Below are positions 5,415 to 22,200 of a DNA stretch of 37,723 nt, piece by piece. Under the pieces are notes generated by a model, which was not told the origin of the DNA, ran no database searches, and saw only the letters and a list, made by a program, of their open reading frames with translations. Numbering within the stretch: the stretch's first letter is position 1; every line of letters begins with the position of its first letter. Position numbers and translations under genes: made by a program. Origin of the DNA: Bacteroidales bacterium (GTDB lineage: Bacteria; Bacteroidota; Bacteroidia; Bacteroidales; WCHB1-69); assembly GCA_017525245.1 (NCBI GenBank), contig JAFXTE010000068.1:1-37723 (forward strand), given 5' to 3'.

Positions 5415-5444
5415 TGTAGAGACGTTTCCTGAAACGTCTCTACA
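5415..5444. repeat. Perfect palindrome, GTAGAGACG family
   Basis: Two 14-bp perfectly complementary arms (5415-5428 and 5431-5444) are separated by 2 nt. The ends read TGTAGAGACG and CGTCTCTACA. It belongs to a family of GTAG-ended palindromes in this window (5464-5487, 5584-5613, 13972-13998, 19341-19370), all at or near the 3' ends of the T9SS cargo genes. Confidence 0.8.
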
Positions 5445-5463: not shown

Positions 5464-5487
5464 GGGCGTATGCGATACGCCCCTACG
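5464..5487. repeat. Palindrome, GTAGGGGCG family
   Basis: Arms GGGCGTAT (5464-5471) and ATACGCCC (5475-5482) with a 3-nt loop, followed by CTAC. It sits a few bases past the stop codon of gene B and resembles the palindromes embedded in the sorting-domain coding sequences. Confidence 0.65.
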
Positions 5488-5490
5488 GGA

Positions 5491-7272
5491 CTATTTTTTG
5501 ATGAAGGTCTTCGTTGCCACGCCCTCGTCCGTGGTCACGCGCACGAAATACATGCCGTTGGCGAGACCGGAGACGTTGATGCGGATGGACGAATAATTAT
5601 TCGCCCCTACAACGGTGCGGACGACCTTCCCATAAACGTCAATTATCTCGATACCCTCCAATTGTACATTGTTCATTGTACATTCTACATTGACAACGTC
5701 GTTGGCCGGGTTCGGGTAGAGGTTGATGCTGTTGAGCAGGTGGTTTTCGATTCCCACGTTGGTGGTCTGTGCGTAAGTGCCGCTCCATTCGCTGTAGTTG
5801 CCGTCGCCGCAGTTGGCCTGCACATGAATATCGTAAAAGGTCAAGCCTGTAAGCCCTGTGATGGTGTAGCTGTTCGTGTTGACGGTAACGACTGTCCACG
5901 GGTTATCAGCTGTACGGTGACGGACATTCCAATCAACTACATTGGGGTTGGCATCCCATGCAATAGAGATAGCCTCGTTTTCAATATTTGTGGTGTGCAG
6001 GTTTGCCGGAACATCACATGGTTCCACATCAAGGGTCGTGAAGATTACATCGTTGCCGTAGTGGGTGCCGTTGGCGGTGGTCACGAAGGCGTGGTAGGTG
6101 TAGTTCGTGTTCGGGGTCAGGTTGTTGAGCGTGGAGGTCATCGTGGTACCGGTGGCCGTTAACACCGTGTAGGTGGCTGCGGAAGCGGCTTTCCATTCAA
6201 AGCCCTGCGCCGTGATGGGCACGTTTTCGGGATTCAAAATGATGCCGTTCAGCGTGGCAGTGGTTTGCTCGATGTTGGAAGCAGGATTGGTGACAGCAGT
6301 GGGCTCGATGACGCAATTGGTGTTGAACGTGTAGGTGGTGTAGGTATTCATGCCGTTGTGGGTGAACGACACGTTAGGGCCGACGACGGAAAATCCGGCC
6401 TCGTTTGCGTATTGTCCGGCATTCCAGACAATGGAGGTGGAATAGCTTCCGCAAAGCGGTACCGTTTCAACGGCAAGACTGTCATTGACCAGCTCTAATG
6501 TGGCCACGGTGACGCCGTTTTGGATAACTGACAGGGAACCGCCACTCCAACCGTCACCGTAACTGTCGGTGAGGGTGAAGGTGAAGGTACATTGGTCAGC
6601 CGCATCGCAGCCGGCGGTGGCGAAAGAGGTCTCTCTGTAGTCAGACACCTCACCTCCACCACAGTTGGCTTGCACGCGCACATCGTAGTTGGTCAGGTTG
6701 GTCAGGTTGGTCAAGGTGTAGGGGTTCGTGGTGACAGGAACGACCGTCCAAGTGGCATCGGTGCTGACTTTGTACTCCAAGTTCCACGCAGTCTCCGTAC
6801 CGGCAACAGTCCAACCCACCTCGGCAGAATTGGTGGTGATGTTGGTGACCGTGATATCGGTGGGTCTCGGACAAGGCGGCATGCAGTTGGTGGTGAATGT
6901 TGTCAATGTGCCGGACGGGGTGCCGGAAGAGGCGTAGATAGTGTCACCTTCATGATCAAGCATCACGAAACTGCATTCATAGTCATAACCACCTCCTGAA
7001 TTCCATACCAAAGAAGTGCTCACGTTGTTGCAAAGCATCACCGTCACTACATCGGTGTACAGTCCTTCGGCGAGTGTCACGTTGGCCACTATGGAGTCGT
7101 TTTGCAGAATAGAGATACTACTGCCGACCCAGCTGTCGTCCCATTCGCCGTAGAGGATGAACGTGTAGGTACACATGTTGGCTGAATCACAGCCGGTTGT
7201 CTGTGCTGACAACGGCGCGTTCATCAGGCCGCACATCAAAATTGCCAGCATAAATTGGAAAACTTTTTTCAT
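5491..7272 (-). CDS. T9SS-secreted fibronectin type III protein B with sorting domain
   Basis: A 593-residue protein. The start is the ATG at 7272 (MKKVFQFML), because the in-frame ATG at 7335 overlaps the -7 promoter element. A signal peptide ends near SAQ. Next come a Cys-rich module (CTYTFILYGEWDDSW), an fn3-like module, a second Cys/DSYGDGWSG module, then two more fn3-like modules. The last ~80 residues are a type A T9SS C-terminal sorting domain with the hallmark LYPNPANDVVNV, IIDVYGKV and NGMYFVRVTTDEG stretches, ending in KTFIKK. By family knowledge the sorting domain is removed and the protein attached to the surface or released. It is the shortest of the five paralogues. A palindromic repeat and a heptamer repeat lie inside its sorting-domain coding sequence. 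No enzymatic motif was seen. Confidence 0.93.
   Translation of the reverse strand: MKKVFQFMLAILMCGLMNAPLSAQTTGCDSANMCTYTFILYGEWDDSWVGSSISILQNDSIVANVTLAEGLYTDVVTVMLCNNVSTSLVWNSGGGYDYECSFVMLDHEGDTIYASSGTPSGTLTTFTTNCMPPCPRPTDITVTNITTNSAEVGWTVAGTETAWNLEYKVSTDATWTVVPVTTNPYTLTNLTNLTNYDVRVQANCGGGEVSDYRETSFATAGCDAADQCTFTFTLTDSYGDGWSGGSLSVIQNGVTVATLELVNDSLAVETVPLCGSYSTSIVWNAGQYANEAGFSVVGPNVSFTHNGMNTYTTYTFNTNCVIEPTAVTNPASNIEQTTATLNGIILNPENVPITAQGFEWKAASAATYTVLTATGTTMTSTLNNLTPNTNYTYHAFVTTANGTHYGNDVIFTTLDVEPCDVPANLHTTNIENEAISIAWDANPNVVDWNVRHRTADNPWTVVTVNTNSYTITGLTGLTFYDIHVQANCGDGNYSEWSGTYAQTTNVGIENHLLNSINLYPNPANDVVNVECTMNNVQLEGIEIIDVYGKVVRTVVGANNYSSIRINVSGLANGMYFVRVTTDEGVATKTFIKK
5584..5613. repeat. Decayed GTAGGGGCG palindrome inside the sorting domain of B
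   Basis: The core GAATAATTATTC is a perfect 12-bp palindrome. The right flank CGCCCCTAC matches the intact copy at 19341-19370, while the left flank is degenerate. It is read in frame as part of VVGANNYSSIR, in the loop before the final INVSGLANGMYF strand. Confidence 0.7.
5662..5696. repeat. Five 7-bp tandem repeats inside the sorting domain of B
   Basis: Consecutive heptamers TTGTACA, TTGTTCA, TTGTACA, TTCTACA, TTGACAA. Because three heptamers equal seven codons, the array stays in frame and encodes the VNVECTMNNVQ stretch right after the NPAND motif. Confidence 0.8.
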
Positions 7273-7560: not shown

Positions 7561-10500
7561 TTATCGTTTCACGAACGTTTTCGTCGCCGTTCCCTCATCC
7601 GTGGTCACGCGCACGAAATACATGCCGTTGGCGAGACCGGAGACGTTGATGCGGGTCGGATTGTCAACCACGTTCACAGTATTGATTACCTTACCGTAAA
7701 CATCGATCACCTCAACCGATTGAACATTGAACCTTGAACTTTGAACCATGACGTAATCGTTGGCAGGGTTCGGGAAGATGGCGATGCTGTTGAGCAGGTA
7801 GCTGTTGAGGCCGTCAACCAGCGTCGTGACGGTCAGCAGGTCGCTCCATTCACTGAGATTGTTGTCACCGCAGTCGGCCTGCACCTGAACTTCGTAGCTG
7901 GTTTCAGCAGCAAGACCTGAGACAGAGTATTGGTTCGTACTGGAGGTTGCACTGATCCATTGACCGTTCTGCGGACGGTAACGGATGTTCCAGCTGTTCA
8001 CGTTGACATTTTCGTTCCATGAGACATCAAAACTCTCTTTGGTGATGTTGCTTGCGGTGAGACTGGAAGGTACATCACACGGTTCGGGAGTGTCTTCAGG
8101 AAGCGTGGTGAAAGTCACCACGTCACCGTAATAAGTCAAGCCGTTATAGGTCATGAATGCTCTGTAAGTGTATTGTGTGCTAGGAGTCAGGCCGTTGAGG
8201 TTGTGGGTCAACGTCTCGCCGGTCACGTTAACAACAGTGTATGAGAGGGCGGAGGATTCTTTCCACTCGAAGCCCATGGGCGTGACATTTACATTGCTGG
8301 GATTTGAGATCGTACCATTCATCGTGGCTGTCGTCTGCATAATGTCAGAGGCGGCGTTGGTTGCCACGGTCGGTTCGGTGAAGACAGGGCCGGAACCGCT
8401 ACAATCGGTGGTGAAGGTGTGGAGAACGCCAGCAGAAGGTGTACCGGTGGTGGCGAAAATCTCTGTGCCGTTGGGATCGGAGACGGAGAAACTGGTCTCA
8501 GAGTCATAGTTCCCTGAATTCCACACTAAAGAGGTGGAAACGTTGTCGCAGAGAGCAACCGTTTCTGTTGCACTGGAGCCCGACAAGGAGAGTGTGGCCA
8601 CGGTAACGCCATTCTGTTGTACATTTAAGGAAGCACCATTCCAGCCGTCACCATAACTGTCGTTAAGAGTGAACGTGTAGGTGCATTGGTCGGCGAGTTC
8701 ACAATTGGCGGTGGAGAAGGAGGATTCTCGATAGTCAGAGACATCGCCGCCACCGCAGTCGGCCTGGACGCGGATGTCGTAAGAGGATCCGGCGGTCAAA
8801 CCAGTGAGCGTGTAAGGATTCGTGGTGACGGGAATCACCGTCCATGTGGCGTCAGTGTTCACCTTGTATTCTACATTCCAAGCCGTCTCCGTGCCCGTTG
8901 AGATCCAGCTCACCTCTGCAGTTGTGGTTCCGATATTGGAGACCGTGATGCTGGAAGGTCTCGGACAGGTAATCGGTGTACAGCTGGTAGTGAAAGTGGT
9001 CAGCGTGCCGGACGGAGTGCCTGAGGAGGTGTAGATAACATCCCCATAGGAGTTGAGCACTTCAAAACTGCATTCGCTTGCATAACTACCTGTGTTCCAG
9101 ATTAATGTAGTGGGCTGATTGTCGCAAAGCGTCACAGGCACAGTGGCGGAATCTCCGGATGAAAAACCGACGGTGGCCACGGTAATGCCGTTCTGCTGAA
9201 CAGTGATGTTGTTACCGTTCCAACCATCACCATAGCTGTCGGCGAGGTTGAAGATGTATTCGCACTGATCAGTCACTTCGCACATGTTGGTGTTGAAGTT
9301 CACAGATGCAGGCTGGGAGGTGCCGTCAGCACCGCAGTCGGCCGTGATGTAAACAGTGTAGGCGGTGCCGGAGGTCATACCCGTCAGATCGTAGGTGTTG
9401 TCTGTAACAGTGGCTGAAGTGCCTTCACCAGGGGTGAAACCGGCCTCACCGTATTCGATGGTGTAGCTGTCGGCGTTGCTGAACCAGGTTACAGTGGCAC
9501 TGGTCATGCCGATATTGGAGACCGTCAGGTTCTGAGGAGCAGGACAAGCCACCAAAGTGGTGAATTGGATGGTCAAGGTGGCGTCAGGGTTGTCAACAGT
9601 GGTGCCGCAGTCGGTGATAACATACACATCGTAGGTGGTTTCGGGGGTAAGGTTGCTCAAAATAAGAGTAGTGGATGAGGCGGGTTCCGTGCTCCATTCG
9701 CTGTCGGTGGAAGCCTTGTAATAGACAATCCATGCGGTGTGGGTCGGATCGTTGTCCGTCCAGGAGATGGTGGCGTTGTGGCCGTCAATATTGGTGGCTG
9801 TCACACTGGTCTTCACGGGTGAAGGACATCCGGGGACGAGTCCTACGGTGAAATCGTCCACATTCCAGGACTGAGGATACATTCCCGTGCCAGTGGGATC
9901 GACATAGCGGAGAGCGATTCGGCCGGAGGTGGCTGTTGCGCCGTTGAGGTCGAACGGTCCCATATAGTTGCCGTTACCGGCGGAGCTGCCGCCGCGAGGA
10001 CCGGGCATACCGGCATCAGCAATCACCAACTCGAAAGTGGAGGTGTCCATGACATTGGTGATCACACCGATTTGGATGTGACCCGTGGAAACGGAGGTCG
10101 CGGTAGCCCAGAATGAAAGACGCAACGTGTTGATGTCGTTGGAGAACTCAGGCAGTACCAACATGCACTCAGTACCCTTGAATTCCGCGGAATTGACACC
10201 AGAATGGCAAGCATCGCCGTAGTTTCTGTACACCATCGGGAAGGTGCCGTTATTGGCTGTATAAGTGACCGGAGTTTCCCAGCAGATGAAGGAAGAGCTG
10301 GTATAACCCTCGAAGTCTTCGAACCACGGGGTGTCTTCTGTCACCGTGACAGCACCGCAGGAGGTGTTGAAGCTGATGGCCTCAGACATCACGGATGAAT
10401 CGGTGGCACAGAGGGCGCGCACGGAAACCGAATAGCTGGAGCTGGCGTTCAAGTCATTGATGACAATAAAGGTATCGGTAGTGTTATAGATGTTGCCGCC

Positions 10501-13854: not shown

Positions 13855-16800
13855 TTATCGTTTCACGAACGTCTTCGTCACAACGCCATCATCCGTGGTC
13901 ACGCGTACGAAATACATGCCGTTGGCGAGACCGGAGACGTTGATTTGGATCGGGGCGGACGCGGGGGATTGGGCGGACGCGATGAATCGCGTCCCTACGG
14001 TGGTGATGATTTTACCATAAACGTCAATTATCTCGATACCCTCAAATTGTACATTGTTCATTGTACATTGTACATTGACAACGTCGTTGGCTGGGTTCGG
14101 ATAAAGGGTGATGCTATTGAGCAGGTAGTTGTCGATACCGCTGTTGGTAGCCGTGGCGATGAGGATTTCAGACCATTCGCTGAGGTTGTCCTCGGCACAA
14201 ACAGCCTGTACCCTGACTTCATAATCTTCGTTGTTTATCAATCCGTTAATTGAATAGCAGGGGGAACCTGTGACCACCACCGTGGTCCATTCGCCGTTGT
14301 TCAGCAGACGGTATTGCAGATTCCATTGAGATACATTGGCGTTGTCTGTCCAGCATACGTTAATGTCGCCTTCATCTTTTAATGCAATGATTTGTTGCAA
14401 ATCGGTTGGGGCATCACATGGTTCGGGAGTGTCTTCCGGCAACGTGGTGAAAGTCATCTCGCTGCCATAAACGGTTTCTCCGTTGAAGGTGATGAACGCC
14501 TTGTAGGTGTAGTCCGTGTTCGGGGTCAGGCCGGTGAGGTTAGCCGTGAAATAGTCCCCACTGCCAGTGCCTGCAACCTGTGTGTAGGAGCCGCCCGTGG
14601 TGGCCTTCCACTCGAATCCCTTCGCCGTGATAGTCACACCGTCAGGATTCGTGATGGTGGCGTTCAGCGTGGCTGTGGTCTGCTCGATATCGGAGGCTGC
14701 TGCAGTGGAAACGGTCGGGTCAGTGATTTCCACGACGGTGGTGTCGCCGCTTCCGCTGATGGAGAAGTTGCGGATAATGGCGGCAGGGTCGTTGCCACCG
14801 CTGTTGTCGTTTCTCCACAAGAACACCAGTTTGGCCTTGCCGTTTGTGCCGGGCACGGCCATCTTTTCACTCACATGGATGGCGTTGTCCTGTGTCAGGT
14901 GAATCACGTAGGGGTAGTTTGCGCTTCCGCCAGTCAATGACTTGTAAGTGGAAAAGTCGAGGGCGTATTGGGCGTTGCTATGGGAGGACTGGGCGTTGGA
15001 ACCTGAAGTGCTGGCCTCGAAGCTCTCGTTAGTGGGTGCAAGGAAAACTTTAAGGTAGTCGTAAGGCGTGATGGCACCCTCGCCCGCCAGTGTCACATCG
15101 AACTCCACAAGCAGGGAATCCATGTTGGCAGGGACGGCAAAGAGTTTCTCGGCCATCACAACGGTGGAGGCGTTCTTGGTGTAGGAGGCATCAGTGCCGT
15201 TGTTGGTGACGAATAGCGCGCTTGCGGTCTCGCCGCTCGGCGTGCCGGCCGTCCAGTAGTTGGTGCAGGTGCCGTTAATCAGATTCCAGTCGCTTGCACT
15301 GGCAAAGGTCGTTTGATAGGGCAGCGGGGTGGGGGTGTCTGTGGTGTAGAAATGAGCGATAGCACTCGACAGCGGTTCGGTACCCTCGCAGGCGGTTTCC
15401 ACATACCAGTCGTATGCCGTGGCAGGGCTCAGATTGGTCAACTCAAATTCGTTGTTGCTGTCCAATGAGATATTGGGGTCGCTTTGCCAGGTCGCTTCAG
15501 ATGACTCTTTGTAGTAGAGGTTGAAGTTGGAAGCCGTGGAGACCCAGGAGAGGGTCGCGGAAGTGATGTCCGGATCGGCGGTCAGTGACATCGGGCGGGA
15601 ACAAGCCGGGACGTGATCGAGCGTCACGTCGTCCACGTAGGTGTTGTTGTAGGCCGAACCAGTGGCCCTCACATGGAATGCCACGTATTTGCCGTTGCCG
15701 TTGTAGGTGTTGAGCGGGAATTCGTAAAGGGTGTACTCATCGGTCAGGTCGTAGGAAGCCACGGCGGTGAATGTGCTCACATCCGTCGGGTCGGTCATCA
15801 CACCCAACTCAATCGCACACTGGTAGCTGTTGCTTGACATTCTCGCGTAGAGGGAAACCTGCAAGCTGGAAATAGGCAGCGCGGCAGTGTCGATGTCGGG
15901 GAGGATGGCAAATGAATTGGAATTGCTGTTGTAGAAGTAGAGCTTGTGTTCTCCGCTGTGGGCATAGTTTGTGTTGACATACGGGTAGTTGTTGGTACTC
16001 GCTTTTGCCCAGCAAGATGGGAGAGGATAAGAAGAGGTTCCGCCGAAGAGGTTATTCTCAAAATCCCAGGTCATAGGAACGGAGGCGATGTCCATGCACT
16101 GCGTGATGAAGCTGCTGGTGGTGAAGCTTGGGGAAAGGGTGCCGTCCGTGCATTCAGCAGCCACGTACCATTCATAGTATGAACCGGACGTAAGGTTGCC
16201 AAGCGTGTAGATTCCGTTCTCGTTCAGGGTGATGCCAGACAGTGCCGTGTAAACGCTGTCCGTGGCGGGTTTGTAGTACAGTGTATAGCTGTTGGCTGTG
16301 CCTGTCCATCCGAGATCCGCGCTCGTGGTGCCGATGTTTGTGGCGGTCAGGCTCTCGGGATTAACGCAGTCGGGAATCGGCATCACTTTGACGTTATCGA
16401 GATACCAGAACCATTCCGTGGTACATTCGTATCTGAATGTGATGTAGTAATGAACGTTGGGCATCGTATCCACAGAGTCGAATTTCACCGTATAGTTGTG
16501 GTAGTCGTTGTTGCCAATCTGTGCGCCTGTGATGCTCCATAAAGAGGTGAAGGTGCTTGCGTCTTCAGGATTGGTCACGTAACCCACGCTGAAAGTGCCG
16601 GAGTTGGCTCCTTCTCTTCTGCACCAGAAATTGACCTGAAGGGTGTTGATGTCATCGGCAAACTCAGGCATCACAGCATACTGCGGGGAGGCAATGCTAT
16701 AGTTGTTGTTGAACTTCAGCATCTGCGCACCATCGTATGCGTAATTGCTGATTGCACCAGGGTAGTTTTGATAAGGGTTGATGACATTCCAGCAGTTCGG

Positions 16801-19206
16801 GATGGCGTTGGTGGCTAAATTTTCGAAACCATGGAAATAAGGGGCGTTGGCGGCACCGCACAAAGTGTTGAACGTGGTGCTTGGGGTCGTAACGATGGAA
16901 CCGTCACTGCAGACAATGCCGAGATACCATTCGTAAGTTGTGGAAGCGCTCAGGTCTTCGAGCAGATAAACGCCATCCGTGAGTGTGGCATTCTCCACCA
17001 TTGTGTAATCTTCGTTGGCAGCGGTCTTGTAATAGAGGTTCACGATGCCGTCGTTGGTCATAGTCCAGGAAAGTTCAGCGGAAGAGGTGGTGATGTTGTT
17101 GGCTGTCAAACCGGCGGGCGGCGTGCAAGAGGGGGCGTTCTCCTCATTATATACGCTCACGTTGTCGATGTAACATCCGTCAGCAGAAGTTCCATTACCA
17201 ATAGCTTTGAATTTCAATTGGATGATGAACATACCGCTCGGGAGGGGCAGGGAGTCGAAAGTCCAGCTTGAGGCAACGTCCGTATAGGTCCGCAGTTCGG
17301 CCCAGTCGGTTTCGGCGCCTGGAGTGGCTGAACGCATATAGACGTGCAATTCGTCCGCAATCCCGCTTCCGAAATAGTCGGCTCTGAGTTGCTCGAACTT
17401 CAAGTAGGGGGTGCTCACGTTGGAGATGTCCAACAAAGGAGAGAAGGCTTCAACTTCGTAGGAGCCGAAGCTGTGTCCGAGATGGTTGGAACTCACGCTC
17501 CAGCTCGTACCGCCATTTGTCGGAAGAAGCCAGCATTCGGGTTCGATGGTGAAGTCCTGAACGTAAGGGCTCTCGTCTGTGACCATGATGGCTCCGCACG
17601 CCGTGGTGAATGTCGCGGTGGAGGAAGCGGAAACAGAACCGTCATCGCAGACAATCTCCACATACCAGTTGTAGGTGGTGGAAGGAGTGAGGCCGGTCAA
17701 GGTGTAACCTTCGTTCTGGAGTACGAGATTTTCCACCACGTTCCATGCGGTGTCATCGGCCACCTTATAATAAATATTGTAAGTTCCGCCGATGTTCGAC
17801 CAGCTGAGGTTAGCCGTGGTGCCTGTGACTGCGGTAACGCTCAACTCGTTGGGGATGACGCAGTCGGTGCCTTCCTGAACCATGAAATTGTCAATGAAGA
17901 GGTAATAAGCCCAATCAGAAAAATAGTTGATGGCAATGTATTTCGCATCGCCGGGTATGTCAGTGGCGAGGTATTGGTTCCAATCGGTGCTGTTGTTGGA
18001 CATAGCGGGCTTCCATGTGAAAGCGCTGATGGATGGTGTGGTGGTGGAGTAGCCAACCTTGAAATTTTCAACCAAGGTGTTGGAGTTTTTGTAGTCGAAA
18101 CTTACGATTTTGGAATCAGTGACGGGCAGCTCCGGCGTAATCACATATTGATTATAGTCTGTTGCCTCGCTATATGAGGAGAAGCGCAGGGAATGTGTGC
18201 CATCGGAGGCGAATTGGGTAGAGATGGCAATGCTGTTCGGGTTTGACGAACTTGCGTTGCCGGCCAACCAGCAGGAGAGGTCGTTCACGTTCTCGAAACT
18301 TTCAACCAACGGAAGGATTGCAATACCGCAGTCAAAGCAGTAACCACTCACCGCAACTGTCTGGCTGAACGTTCCGGCGGTGATAGTGATCGTGTCCTGA
18401 TGAGTGCCTGTGGCAGTGGGGGCGTAACGCACGTACAGATCGCCGCCGCCGACAGGCAGGGTGGCGGTACTTCCGAAAGTGGTGTTGTCCGCGGAAATCT
18501 CAAACGGCGCCGCAACACTGGCAGATACAGTTCCTGGAATGTTGTTGGCTACAACATGTACGGTTTGCGCAGAAGAAGTTATGTTGAGTTCCACACTGCC
18601 GAAGGAAAGTTCCTCGGGAGTGACCATTAAGACGGATTCAGAAGAGGTGGAATAGACTGTGATGTCATCCAATACAACAAGGAATTGGTCCGTGCAGTTG
18701 AAATGGCGGAACGCGATATAGACCGTGTTGCCAGCATAACTGGTCAGATCCACCGTGCGCATGGTCCAGGTGCCGTGGGCCGCCGTCGGAGTTTCCTCGA
18801 AAAGAAGGGTGAACGCCGATGTGTCGGTGGCTGAAGTGGTGGAAACATAGACTCCATAGTGGTCACCTGGATAGGACTCAGCCACAGTGAACCAATAGGT
18901 CAGCGAACTTGTCCCCGACAGTTCAATGGCCGGTGTTACCAGCCAATTGTTTGGAGTGAGAGCATCGTAGGTGGAGTTTTCGTACGAATACGAGGCGTAT
19001 GCGCCTGTGCCCGTATGTCCGGACGAAAGGTCTCCTTGCACGGAAATGTGCTCCCAGTTGTTGCCGTCCTGGTCCGCGTCAATGATTGTCCATCCCGTAG
19101 GCAGGGATGTCCCTTCAAAGCTTTCGGTGAATATCGGCACTTGCGCCCTGACACCGAAAGTCAGCATTGACAGGAATAATGTCAAAAACAGAAATGTCTT
19201 TTTCAT
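13855..19206 (-). CDS. Giant T9SS-secreted cleaved-adhesin protein D
   Basis: A 1783-residue protein starting MKKTFLFLTL with a signal peptide ending in VRAQ. Residues about 22-190 form a cleaved-adhesin (choice-of-anchor J) domain like those of P. gingivalis HagA and gingipain adhesins: GWTIIDADQDGNNW, NWLVTPAIEL, YGVYVSTT, LLFEETPT, VYIAFRHFNC. A small immunoglobulin-like domain (LSFGSVELNITSS to DITVSGYC region) follows, then alternating jelly-roll and fn3-like modules, and a T9SS sorting domain (LYPNPANDVVNV, IIDVYGKI, GMYFVRVTTDDG, ending KTFVKR). The sorting domain carries an extra Ala/Ser/Pro-rich stretch encoded by a palindromic repeat. It lies 34 nt downstream of gene E with no promoter between, so they are likely co-transcribed. 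The role in adhesion or heme/protein binding is inferred from the family only. Confidence 0.93.
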   Translation of the reverse strand: MKKTFLFLTLFLSMLTFGVRAQVPIFTESFEGTSLPTGWTIIDADQDGNNWEHISVQGDLSSGHTGTGAYASYSYENSTYDALTPNNWLVTPAIELSGTSSLTYWFTVAESYPGDHYGVYVSTTSATDTSAFTLLFEETPTAAHGTWTMRTVDLTSYAGNTVYIAFRHFNCTDQFLVVLDDITVYSTSSESVLMVTPEELSFGSVELNITSSAQTVHVVANNIPGTVSASVAAPFEISADNTTFGSTATLPVGGGDLYVRYAPTATGTHQDTITITAGTFSQTVAVSGYCFDCGIAILPLVESFENVNDLSCWLAGNASSSNPNSIAISTQFASDGTHSLRFSSYSEATDYNQYVITPELPVTDSKIVSFDYKNSNTLVENFKVGYSTTTPSISAFTWKPAMSNNSTDWNQYLATDIPGDAKYIAINYFSDWAYYLFIDNFMVQEGTDCVIPNELSVTAVTGTTANLSWSNIGGTYNIYYKVADDTAWNVVENLVLQNEGYTLTGLTPSTTYNWYVEIVCDDGSVSASSTATFTTACGAIMVTDESPYVQDFTIEPECWLLPTNGGTSWSVSSNHLGHSFGSYEVEAFSPLLDISNVSTPYLKFEQLRADYFGSGIADELHVYMRSATPGAETDWAELRTYTDVASSWTFDSLPLPSGMFIIQLKFKAIGNGTSADGCYIDNVSVYNEENAPSCTPPAGLTANNITTSSAELSWTMTNDGIVNLYYKTAANEDYTMVENATLTDGVYLLEDLSASTTYEWYLGIVCSDGSIVTTPSTTFNTLCGAANAPYFHGFENLATNAIPNCWNVINPYQNYPGAISNYAYDGAQMLKFNNNYSIASPQYAVMPEFADDINTLQVNFWCRREGANSGTFSVGYVTNPEDASTFTSLWSITGAQIGNNDYHNYTVKFDSVDTMPNVHYYITFRYECTTEWFWYLDNVKVMPIPDCVNPESLTATNIGTTSADLGWTGTANSYTLYYKPATDSVYTALSGITLNENGIYTLGNLTSGSYYEWYVAAECTDGTLSPSFTTSSFITQCMDIASVPMTWDFENNLFGGTSSYPLPSCWAKASTNNYPYVNTNYAHSGEHKLYFYNSNSNSFAILPDIDTAALPISSLQVSLYARMSSNSYQCAIELGVMTDPTDVSTFTAVASYDLTDEYTLYEFPLNTYNGNGKYVAFHVRATGSAYNNTYVDDVTLDHVPACSRPMSLTADPDITSATLSWVSTASNFNLYYKESSEATWQSDPNISLDSNNEFELTNLSPATAYDWYVETACEGTEPLSSAIAHFYTTDTPTPLPYQTTFASASDWNLINGTCTNYWTAGTPSGETASALFVTNNGTDASYTKNASTVVMAEKLFAVPANMDSLLVEFDVTLAGEGAITPYDYLKVFLAPTNESFEASTSGSNAQSSHSNAQYALDFSTYKSLTGGSANYPYVIHLTQDNAIHVSEKMAVPGTNGKAKLVFLWRNDNSGGNDPAAIIRNFSISGSGDTTVVEITDPTVSTAAASDIEQTTATLNATITNPDGVTITAKGFEWKATTGGSYTQVAGTGSGDYFTANLTGLTPNTDYTYKAFITFNGETVYGSEMTFTTLPEDTPEPCDAPTDLQQIIALKDEGDINVCWTDNANVSQWNLQYRLLNNGEWTTVVVTGSPCYSINGLINNEDYEVRVQAVCAEDNLSEWSEILIATATNSGIDNYLLNSITLYPNPANDVVNVQCTMNNVQFEGIEIIDVYGKIITTVGTRFIASAQSPASAPIQINVSGLANGMYFVRVTTDDGVVTKTFVKR
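13971..13998. repeat. Palindrome embedded in the sorting domain of D
   Basis: Arms GGACGCGAT (13975-13983) and ATCGCGTCC (13986-13994) with a 2-nt loop, followed by CTAC. An 11-bp direct repeat, GGGCGGACGCG, occurs at 13953 and 13971. On the minus strand this adds the residues GTRFIASAQSPASAPI before the final INVSGLANGMYF segment, a stretch absent from C. Confidence 0.75.
14047..14081. repeat. Five 7-bp tandem repeats inside the sorting domain of D
   Basis: Heptamers TTGTACA, TTGTTCA, TTGTACA, TTGTACA, TTGACAA, in frame and encoding VNVQCTMNNVQ. Confidence 0.8.
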
Positions 19207-19240
19207 TGCAATTTGATTTTGGTGTATAAATATTGTTTGT

Positions 19241-22200
19241 TTAACGTTTTACAATAAACGGTTTTGTTGCCACACCCTCATCCGTGGTCACGCGCACGAA
19301 ATACATGCCGTCGGCGAGACCGGAGATGTTGATGCGGGTCTGTAGGGGCGAATCATTATTCGCCCCTACAATGGTGCGGACAACCTTTCCGTACACATCA
19401 ATTACCTCGATACCCTCCAATTGTACATTGTTCATTGTACATTGAACATTGACAACGTCGTTGGCCGGGTTCGGGAACAAAACGATGCTGTTTTCCAAAT
19501 GGTTCACGATGCCCACGTTGGTGGTCTGCGCTGTAATGGAGTTGGACCACTCGCTGAGACCGTTGTCGCCGCAGTTGGCCTGCACTTGGATTACATAAGT
19601 GGTCAAACCCTCAAGATCGGTGATAGTATAGCTGTTGGTGCTGGATGTCTGAGTGCTCCAGTCGCCGTTGGCAACACGGTAACGGATATTCCAGCTGTTC
19701 ACGTCCGCATTGGCGTCCCAAGCAATGGAGATGGCGTGGTTTTCCACATTGGTGGCGGTGAGCCCAGTAGGCATCTCGCAAGGCACGGGCGTGTCTTCGG
19801 GCAGGGTGGTGAAGGTGACAATTGTCGTCCATTCGCTCACGCCGCCGTCGCTACAGTTAGACCTCACACGAGCTTGATAAGAGGTGTTAGGAGTCAGACC
19901 GTTTATGGTGTACCATGGGTGGTCGGATGTGACTTCTGTCCAGTCGGCGTCCTCGGCGGCCTTGTACTGCAAAGTCCATGACGGCACGGAATTGTCGAGT
20001 GTCCAGGCGGCGACTGCCGAGGTCTGCGTGATACCCTCTGTCGCAAACGAAATGTATTCAGGGGCATCGCAAGGCTCGGTACCGGCGTTAGCTGCGGCAA
20101 TAGTGATGTCATCCAGAACAATGCCGTATCCGTCGGCGGCATCACCGGTGAAGGCAATTTGGTAAGTGGCCGTCGGGTTGGGCAACGCGATGGAATCCAT
20201 GGTCCACTGGCTTACTGCGGAAGAATAAACCGTCAGCATCTGCCACTCGGAGGTGGGGGAGGTGCGATAATATACGCTGAGGTGATCTTGGTCATTACCC
20301 CAGGGCTTTTGTGCGTACCAATAGGAGAGGTAGGGATTTGTTATGTTGGAGAGGTCAAAAACGGGCGATATCAGACGGGTGATACTTCCATTGTAGTTCT
20401 GCGAATAGAAGAAGGCATTGTAGTTTCCGCTGTGCGCACCTTCGATGCCGGTACTGCTTTGCGTGCCATTCTCTATTGTCCAGTTGATAATATCGATTAC
20501 TTGCTCTTGAGACCAGCAGTCAGGCATGGCACCATCGTGCTCAAAATCTTCGGTGTAGGGGAAGGTCGTGAACGCATCGCAAGGAACGTTGAAAAGGGTT
20601 GATGCCCACAATGATTGGTTGTCGGAGCCACAGATTGCCTGCACACGCACCTGGTAGGAGACACCAGCCGCCAGACCGTTGAGGAGGTAGGAGGCGGTGC
20701 CGCTGACGTTAGTGGTCGTCCAAACAGAGTCTGCCGCTTCTTTGTACTCTAAAATCCAGTCGCTCTCCTCACCGCCTGGCATCCAGCTGATCTCAGCGCT
20801 GTTGGTGGTGAGATTCGTGGCGGCAAGGTTTGTGGGCATCGGACAAGAAAGCGTCTCAACGGAAACATTGTAGATGATGGCAGCCGGTTGTGTGCCGTCG
20901 CTCTGATCGTTCTTCCACAGGAAGACTAATTTGGCCGTGGAATTGGCCGTCGGATTCGTGTTCGGATTGGGCATGGTGACGGACACATGCACAGTGTTGT
21001 CACCGGTAAGGTTGAATTTATACGGGAAAGAAGAAGATCCGCTGTATTGCAGATAGTCGGAGAAGTTCAACGCGAAATTCGAATAGTTGTTGGCGGCGTA
21101 GTACCTGTTGGTGTTAATTGCCGGATAAATCGAGTCGGAAGGAGCGAAAAACACTTTCAGATAGTCGAAAGTACTTTCGCCACCCACATTCACGTCGAAG
21201 CTGATGAACAGTTCGTCGGCATCTCCGATGGTGAAGAGCTTCTCGGCGGAAACCACGGAGAAGGAGTTCACGTGGTATCCCGGGGTGGTGCCGTCGTGGG
21301 TCACGAACAAAGCTGCCGTACTGTCGCTGACGGAACCGATCTTCCAAAAGTTACTGCAACTGCCGTTGTAGAATAACCAGTTCCGGTCATTTCCTTCGCT
21401 GAAATCTGTGCTGTACGGGAGGCTGGTGGACTCCATTGTGGTGGCGAAGGTGATGCTGGCCGCAGGGGAGTAGTCTCCATCGCAATCACTATACACATTG
21501 ACAGTGTAAGAGGTGCTGGCGGCGAGGCTGGAAAGGCTGAACGTGGTGTCGGAGGTATTTTCTGTAATCCAAGCAGTGTCGCTTTCGGCCTTGTACTCAA
21601 CCAGATATTCGGAAGCAGAGCCCGTCCAGGTCAAGTCAGCAGATTCGGAGCTGACATTGGAGGCGGCAAGGTTTCCGGGAGGCGGGCAGGAAGCGCAGCT
21701 AACCGTCAGTTCGAAACCGGCCGATTGCATACCGCCGTCAGAGGTGAACTTAATGGTCAGCGGGCCTGCTGAAGACATGGTGCTGGGGACTGTCCCGTTG
21801 CCGCAGAATTCGCCTAACAGCGTGCCATTGGTTCCTGCACCGTCATAAATGCGGAGGTAGTCCCAGTTGTTTTCCGTGGCATACGTTCCGGAAACGGCAA
21901 CCGAGCTGCCTTCGGTTTCAGGGTAGATTACCAGGATGGCGTTGCAGTTTGAGCTGTAGTTGCCGTTGGCTCCGCCGTTGTCATAGATAATCAGCGAGCA
22001 GGAGGTCAGCGTGTCGGAACCGGTTATCCCCATGTTGTATGTGCCCGGGGTGGCGGAAATCGGACCTGCCCAATTGCTCTGTTCGTCGCCGCAGTTGGAT
22101 TGTACGTAGAAATCATAGCTCATCGCACTCAAGTTGTTGATGGTGTATGGATGAGAGGTCGCATTCACCAATGTGGCGTTTTCCGCACCGTGTTGGAAAC

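Follow-up and report, generated by a model that had tools for sequence, protein, structure and literature searches.

Short palindromes read as protein in one loop of type IX secretion sorting domains, with differing palindrome types at orthologous codons, in a genus of Bacteroidales

Introduction

Short palindromic repeats that occur between genes and also in frame within genes, typically in non-structured protein segments, are described from Rickettsia and Wolbachia as Rickettsia and Wolbachia palindromic elements (RPE and WPE) (PMC3733652, PMC2996958). A further class, the repetitive extragenic palindromes (REPs) of the GTAG group, combines a GTAG tag with a palindrome, forms several families per genome and is mostly intergenic or near 3' ends, with some copies in frame (Di Nocera et al., 2013, PMC3733652). 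In this study we followed up a 37,723-nt stretch of the Bacteroidales assembly GCA_017525245.1 (contig JAFXTE010000068.1), hereafter the window, in which several genes encode proteins with C-terminal sorting domains of the type IX secretion system (T9SS). An earlier note on this DNA had claimed that palindromes with GTAG and CTAC ends are inserted in frame in the same loop of three of these sorting domains (genes B, D and E) and resemble the coding palindromes of Rickettsia.

As in the Rickettsia case, the palindromes of the present family lie in frame in genes and also between genes. Whereas RPE and WPE are described at assorted positions of assorted proteins, the main coding site here is a single loop in a single domain family, where orthologs carry palindromes of differing type at the same codons. 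The likeness to GTAG REPs consists in the GTAG tag, the many copies per genome and the mostly intergenic location. In classical REPs the GTAG tag lies outside the stem; here it stands at one end of the palindrome, within the stem, and pairs with CTAC at the other end, giving a dyad of up to 14 bp per arm in a 28-bp element, and no neighbouring REP-associated tyrosine transposase (RAYT) was found. In the source consulted, GTAG repeats are recorded for Proteobacteria, Cyanobacteria, Chloroflexi and the PVC group, and Bacteroidetes appear there with CGTC repeats only; the same source also holds a precedent for the sharing of one site, different REPs having been found at about the same recB site in Xanthomonas campestris and X. 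oryzae (PMC3733652). The PARCEL repeats are likewise palindromic DNA read as protein, but they form tandem tracts that make up amphipathic domains (PMC2996958), whereas a single element occupies the loop here. Finally, an insertion in the L-beta5-beta6 hairpin of the PorU and PorZ sorting domains is tolerated by export when grafted into RgpB; this is a different loop from the one between strands beta4 and beta5 considered here, and in the parts consulted it is not described as mobile DNA (PMC11285876).

Coding REP-like palindromes are therefore already known, in the form of the Rickettsia elements and the GTAG REPs. Within the open-licence literature, covered mostly as titles and the beginnings of abstracts, we found no report of palindromes in T9SS sorting domains, nor of such elements being focused on a single loop within a family of domains or changing type between orthologs at the same codons. 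As far as these searches go, the last two features are what is new.

Results

The family has the form GTAGRGRCG...CGYCYCTAC, in which nine-base ends surround a varied core; elements are 28–30 bp long and many core types exist. A total of 97 sorting domains was obtained in the window's genome from 111 matches to the TIGR04183 profile (cut-off 23 bits), three split pairs being merged and 11 weak matches below the cut-off left out. An element with a palindrome score of at least 23 was carried by 20 of the 97, and 17 scored at least 25. Among 2,037 reversed or codon-shuffled domains, 99.9% scored 22 or less and the maximum was 23; three genuine domains tie with this maximum at a score of 23, yet they share the VGTRFIAS letters of stronger copies. 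All 20 elements lie in one loop, between strands beta4 and beta5, their starts spanning seven neighboring columns (41–47 of 133) in an alignment of 94 rows. The predicted fold agrees with the seven-stranded beta-sandwich of solved T9SS type A sorting domains; in the model the element falls between the strands at residues 49–53 and 64–67, and residues 58–60 form the only run of at least three residues with a predicted local distance difference test (pLDDT) value below 50. In a second species (G026), 12 of 65 domains (the best 65 of 88) carried an element in the same loop, all in phase 0 and on several sequence backgrounds, compared with 4 of 1,950 codon-shuffled controls. Sorting-domain matches numbered 88–111 in each of the three genomes counted.

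Sorting domains are strongly enriched in elements relative to other coding DNA. Their 20.9 kb of sequence holds 20 elements, and the sampled 340 kb of other coding DNA holds 12, a rate per kb about 27 times as high in the former; the Poisson P for this enrichment is 5e-22, or 1e-6 if only eight of the insertions were independent (Poisson and permutation values ignore relatedness unless stated). The comparison came from a 400-kb sample picked by coordinate, not at random, away from the listed sorting domains. The other stretches include some chosen for holding a palindrome; the remaining coding DNA of stretches chosen for sorting domains or palindromes gave 15 elements in about 500 kb and was not enriched. 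Two further sets of stretches gave 4 of 32 domains with an element (L159–L188, mostly top-scoring domains) and 39 of 77 (L189–L268), the latter figure being biased because the query contained an element.

The domains that carry an element differ in the residues before the loop, where DVYGK, DLQGRV, DIQGSL, DAFGRLL, DLAGRVMM, ITDITGR and IADMNGR were distinguished by eye. On the tree of the own-genome domains (94 rows, three of the 97 being too short), which is a weak tree, parsimony required 11 changes of presence, compared with a mean of 18.3 after shuffling (0 of 500 shuffles as low). Internal sorting-like domains at C78:6794, C68:24141 and C50:1665 also carry an element in the same loop; they are situated at residues 140–157 of proteins to which our script assigned lengths of 592, 670 and 1190 residues. 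Nearness to the stop codon is therefore not the cause of the location, and we rejected 3'-end proximity as an explanation.

Changes of palindrome type were seen in a gene at C62:35745-37457, which has close orthologs in 16 other genomes (68–86% identity). A recognizable element (score at least 23) of one of five core types occupied the same codons in 15 of the 17 genes. The core types, assigned by eye, were TTTCxxGAAA in seven, GAATAATTATTC in four, GCGATTMATCGC in two and GATAATTATTC and TTGCGCGCAA in one each, some with point changes; the corresponding slot of G031 scored 19 and is a remnant by position only, that of G063 held none, and 13 more distant homologs were all below the threshold. 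The flanking codons could be aligned while the cores differed, and the palindrome was mostly kept while the peptide changed. The two arms of an element matched each other on average at 11.4 of 14 positions within species and at 8.7 of 14 when mixed between species, with 0 of 20,000 permutations as high (16 rows including the G031 remnant, relatedness not modelled), so that both arms of an element change jointly. The gene tree called for eight changes when all labels were counted and for two when only presence was. The type in the G003 slot is the commonest among the sites listed for that genome (9 of 25 listed, of 156), and that in the G012 slot accounted for 6 of 50 among the sites listed, of 261. 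Elsewhere, gene E (VGANNDSPLQT) and L200 (VETLRATSLPT) hold elements of different types, their proteins being 88% identical in the 250 residues that precede the domain, and a filled and an empty domain (C69:21704 and C69:27822) were 85.5% identical upstream.

Phase 0 was used by 62 of 63 elements, with the pattern V-[EG]-x...S-L-Q, and the sole phase-1 element (judged by letters, L265) is doubtful. In phase 2 the GTAG end always supplies a TAG stop, and two of the six common types also have a stop in phase 1, so that the uniform phase is in part forced. Since phase 1 is open in 37 of the 63 elements, stop codons were rejected as the whole cause. Other phases also occur outside sorting domains.

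Across the 3.68-Mb genome, the strict palindrome was found in 146 copies. It was present in all 35 other genomes of the genus that were searched (2 to 261 copies each) and in 9 of 24 genomes of other families of the order (1 to 23 copies), and the reversed control gave 0 in all 60 genomes, including the window's own. Two genomes of other families (G036 and G037) carry the GAATNATNATTC type; a draw of 295 other Bacteroidota genomes contained none with this type. In the 400-kb sample, elements scoring at least 23 comprised 27 intergenic copies, five over a gene edge and 12 in predicted genes, against six in the reversed sequence; most copies are therefore ordinary intergenic palindromes, with the genes called by a simple codon-score script and not by a published gene finder. 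Copies not inside predicted genes showed a preference for Y-T just outside the element (T adjoins it in 60 of 80 flanks) and no clear motif farther out. Two genomes of other families, G056 (23 strict palindromes, 85 sorting-domain matches) and G044 (22 and 59), had, by eye, no palindrome inside a match, though one lies about 40 bp beyond the end of a sorting domain. Among named assemblies, those closest to this genome are Bacteroidales sampled from the guts of ruminants (mostly rumen, omasum and abomasum), which suggests that the window's genome is of the same kind.

Discussion

We consider it probable that REP-like palindromes spread in these genomes, survive in the tolerant beta4–beta5 loop, and that the slot is re-used by other core types. 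Under this proposal, palindromes would spread in this genus mostly into intergenic DNA and, within genes, would survive where the favored phase can be read and the protein tolerates about ten foreign residues. The beta4–beta5 loop of the T9SS sorting domain would be the main such place among those seen; the domain is present in roughly 90–110 copies per genome, and its recognition would rest elsewhere, on the fold, the beta3–beta4 turn and the C-terminus. An occupied slot would be re-used when the resident is replaced by another core type of that genome with the flanking codons little changed, and other palindromes would decay into ordinary loop sequence. Copies appear to move as DNA and to replace a resident palindrome, what singles out the loop is presumably the tolerance of the protein rather than a DNA target, and the host seems mostly to tolerate the elements; tolerance explains the data about as well as does use of the elements to vary the loop. 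In the C62 series the replacement seems confined to the element and a few bases. This confinement, together with shared arms of only nine bases, argues against ordinary homologous exchange. Candidate machineries would be a trans-acting enzyme of the Y1/RAYT type or, at the replication fork, a switch of template from one palindrome to another.

Several observations weigh against this proposal. With two changes of presence, the C62 series is compatible with a single old insertion, so that the novelty lies in the type changes of one gene series and in single pairs. Descent among paralogs explains part of the 20 occupied domains of the window's genome, given fewer changes of presence than after shuffling, and the starred branches of that tree force just three. 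Loops that hold an element exceed empty ones by no more than about 4.5 residues (between the G[KR] motif and GxY the medians are 27.5 residues for 20 filled domains and 23 for 68 empty ones), so no clean empty and filled pair displays the original insertion event. The density in the loop (20 in 97 loops) looks higher than that in intergenic DNA (27 in 60 kb), which bare tolerance does not predict. Movement of the copies is deduced from comparison of sequences, and the genomes are drafts, mostly metagenome assemblies, though the pattern recurs across many of them.

The search for a mobilizer also went against the proposal, and a link to an IS200-like or RAYT transposase, for which the earlier note had proposed a search, was not supported. 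The window's genome has three Y1_Tnp genes, none of them flanked by the palindrome (one palindrome lies 1.47 kb off in L126, none was found in L127 or L128). Among the relatives, 0 of 40 Y1 transposase genes examined, of 57 matches, had an element (score at least 25) within 300 bp, the two noted lying at 697 and 1,077 bp. A classical REPtron, that is, a Y1 HUH transposase gene with copies of the same palindrome on its flanks, was therefore rejected for the three own and the 40 relatives' genes. Seven pairs of same-type palindromes 0.3–3.5 kb apart were inspected; six of them enclosed whole predicted genes, none transposase-like by eye and with no family search run, and an autonomous element bounded by two such palindromes was likewise set aside. 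Copy number rose with the number of Y1 genes (Spearman 0.57, n = 23). Its correlation with genome size was stronger (0.73), and the former correlation therefore says little. A mobilizer acting in trans is possible.

Among the alternatives, the one that we regard as unlikely, though the least so, holds that one or a few ancient insertions were inherited and spread by duplication or gene conversion among paralogs, and were kept palindromic by quasipalindrome correction, in which template switching copies one arm onto the other, with no new insertions or swaps. The clustering of presence on the own-genome tree speaks for it, as do the DVYGK paralogs, which cluster in the tree with two element types, the decayed end shared by the VGTRFIAS copies, which looks like descent, and the two changes of presence in the C62 series. 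It has difficulty with five unlike core types at one orthologous site whose arms differ jointly, with at least two slot types that match types listed elsewhere in the same genome, and with the clearly different sorting-domain backgrounds that share the loop; we also reason that stepwise correction would not readily turn TTTCATGAAA into GCGATTAATCGC. A further alternative is a selected diversification, in which the host would gain from varied loop peptides, for instance by escape from binding by phage or host factors or by tuning of T9SS handling. The loop varies between orthologs, has low confidence in the model and is probably flexible, is denser in elements than intergenic DNA, and is read in phase 0 even where phase 1 is open, which hints at selection on the peptide or at inheritance of the slot. 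Nevertheless, 77 of the 97 own domains are without a recognizable element and decayed copies persist. The type A sorting domain is often cleaved off after export, which limits roles at the surface, and we judge this explanation improbable.

We hold it to be equally improbable that the machinery favors a DNA sequence within the stretch that encodes the G[KR]-V turn, making the loop a DNA hot spot: hits recur within a few codons of one position and Y-T is favored just outside non-genic copies, but the farther flanks are without a clear motif and the upstream codons differ between sorting-domain backgrounds. A role of the hairpin in DNA or mRNA, for 3'-end stability or supercoiling, with the protein reading incidental, seems very improbable. 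The palindromes that follow the stops of some sorting-domain genes (see below) would suit such a role, yet within sorting domains the coding copies keep to a single loop of the protein, and internal domains hundreds of codons from the stop have them too.

A bolder form of the preferred proposal, the re-use of a tolerant slot, can be put forward tentatively, and we think it somewhat less probable than its negation: the beta4–beta5 loop, once occupied, would act as a docking slot that is repeatedly emptied and refilled, palindrome for palindrome, over about 30 bp with the flanks little touched, the palindromes currently active in a lineage being thus written into its secretion tags and slowly domesticated as loop protein. 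If so, mobile palindromic DNA would be the source of one defined structural part of the secretion signal and would keep renewing it, simultaneously in many proteins. The 88–111 domain matches in each of three genomes, and 40 genomes of the genus, would form a natural replicate series for how selfish DNA becomes protein, and the same series bears on how REP-like families replace each other and on how much the T9SS signal may vary. Type changes at a fixed position make the precise replacement of small palindromes testable by comparison of reads or strains.

Taken as a whole, the earlier interpretation of the window is partly supported, and the phenomenon is larger than had been noted, since the genome-wide family and the type changes at orthologous sites were beyond the reach of that first look. 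Palindromes are read in the sorting domains of B, D and E essentially where they had been placed (for B, 5584-5613 had been given), gene C has none, its loop reading NTVNVVDNPTRINV, and of the two non-coding copies past the stop of gene B, one lies exactly as given and the other had been put at 5464-5487 (Table 1). That these are repeated palindromes and not chance was confirmed by the genome search and the null scores, and their resemblance to coding palindromic elements stands, since they are repeated REP-like palindromes read as protein. The claim of a single loop holds across divergent domains and relatives, and that of a preference for sorting domains holds for the coding copies, the copies at large being mostly intergenic. 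In the C62 series, the one ortholog series examined, the loop is not a protein sequence conserved without the palindrome. The in-frame reading is real but partly imposed by stops in phases 2 and 1, and insertion is upheld as to place and not as a clean addition of ten codons.

Features of the window and minor observations

Table 1. Genes, sorting domains and repeats of the window (TIGR04183 matches of B, C, D and E are all above the cut-off; ORF, open reading frame)
Feature	Position	Strand	Evidence or score
Gene B, T9SS-exported protein, ORF of 614 aa	5491..7335	(-)	ORF; TIGR04183 match
Sorting domain of gene B	5494-5721	(-)	TIGR04183, 59.0 bits
Coding palindrome in gene B, one end decayed, read VGANNYSSIR	~5583..5610	(-)	score 27
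Heptamer array TTGTWCA in gene B, read NVECTMNNVQ	5662..5682		
Non-coding palindrome TGTAGAGACGTTTC/GAAACGTCTCTACA, 14-bp arms, 47 bp 3' of gene B stop (5491-5493)	5415..5444		
Imperfect non-coding palindrome, GGGCGTATGCGATACGCCC type, 4 bp 3' of gene B stop	5460..5486		
Gene C, ORF of 2022 aa	7561..13629	(-)	ORF; TIGR04183 match
Sorting domain of gene C, empty loop without palindrome	7564-7779	(-)	TIGR04183, 58.6 bits
Gene D, ORF of 1783 aa	13855..19206	(-)	ORF; TIGR04183 match
Sorting domain of gene D	13858-14106	(-)	TIGR04183, 51.0 bits
Coding palindrome in gene D, GTAGGGACGCGATTCATCGCGTCC then decayed (outer end of one arm), read VGTRFIASAQ, then SPASAP	13971..13998	(-)	score 25
Heptamer array in gene D, read NVQCTMNNVQ	14047..14074		
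Gene E, ORF of 1777 aa	19241..24574	(-)	ORF; TIGR04183 match
Sorting domain of gene E	19247-19480	(-)	TIGR04183, 53.6 bits
Coding palindrome in gene E, 13-bp perfect arms, read VGANNDSPLQ, beta4–beta5 loop of predicted fold	19341..19370	(-)	score 31
Heptamer array in gene E, read NVQCTMNNVQ	19421..19441		

The TTGTWCA heptamer arrays are a second coding repeat within the sorting domains of B, D and E that hold palindromes; 13 of 17 such arrays were inside sorting domains in the stretches examined, 60% of which had been chosen for sorting domains or palindromes. Short tandem expansions (SPASA and TGASA units) follow VGTRFIAS-type elements in sorting domains of C73, C92, C60 and C100 (L062, L074, L055 and L028), and a similar SPASA-like expansion follows the element of this type in gene D at about 13953-13975; these look as though a decayed palindrome arm had seeded slippage.

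Sorting-like matches above the profile cut-off with no in-frame stop in the next 600 bases were found at C78:6794-7012, C68:24141-24362, C50:1665-1883, C93:5041-5256, C52:37594-37809 and C51:12855-13070, and the three that carry an element (C78, C68 and C50) are well within the first half of the protein. Palindromes are also read as protein outside sorting domains, in L119 (C52:69196-69329) and L093 (C105:15383-15809) among others, and some adjoin tandem repeats (AMNRNSD, ASDQHPI). Of 91 sorting-domain genes in the window's genome, 14 are followed by a scoring palindrome no more than 150 nt past the stop. Eight of these palindromes have GTAG-type ends, at the usual position of REPs, and six are terminator-like.

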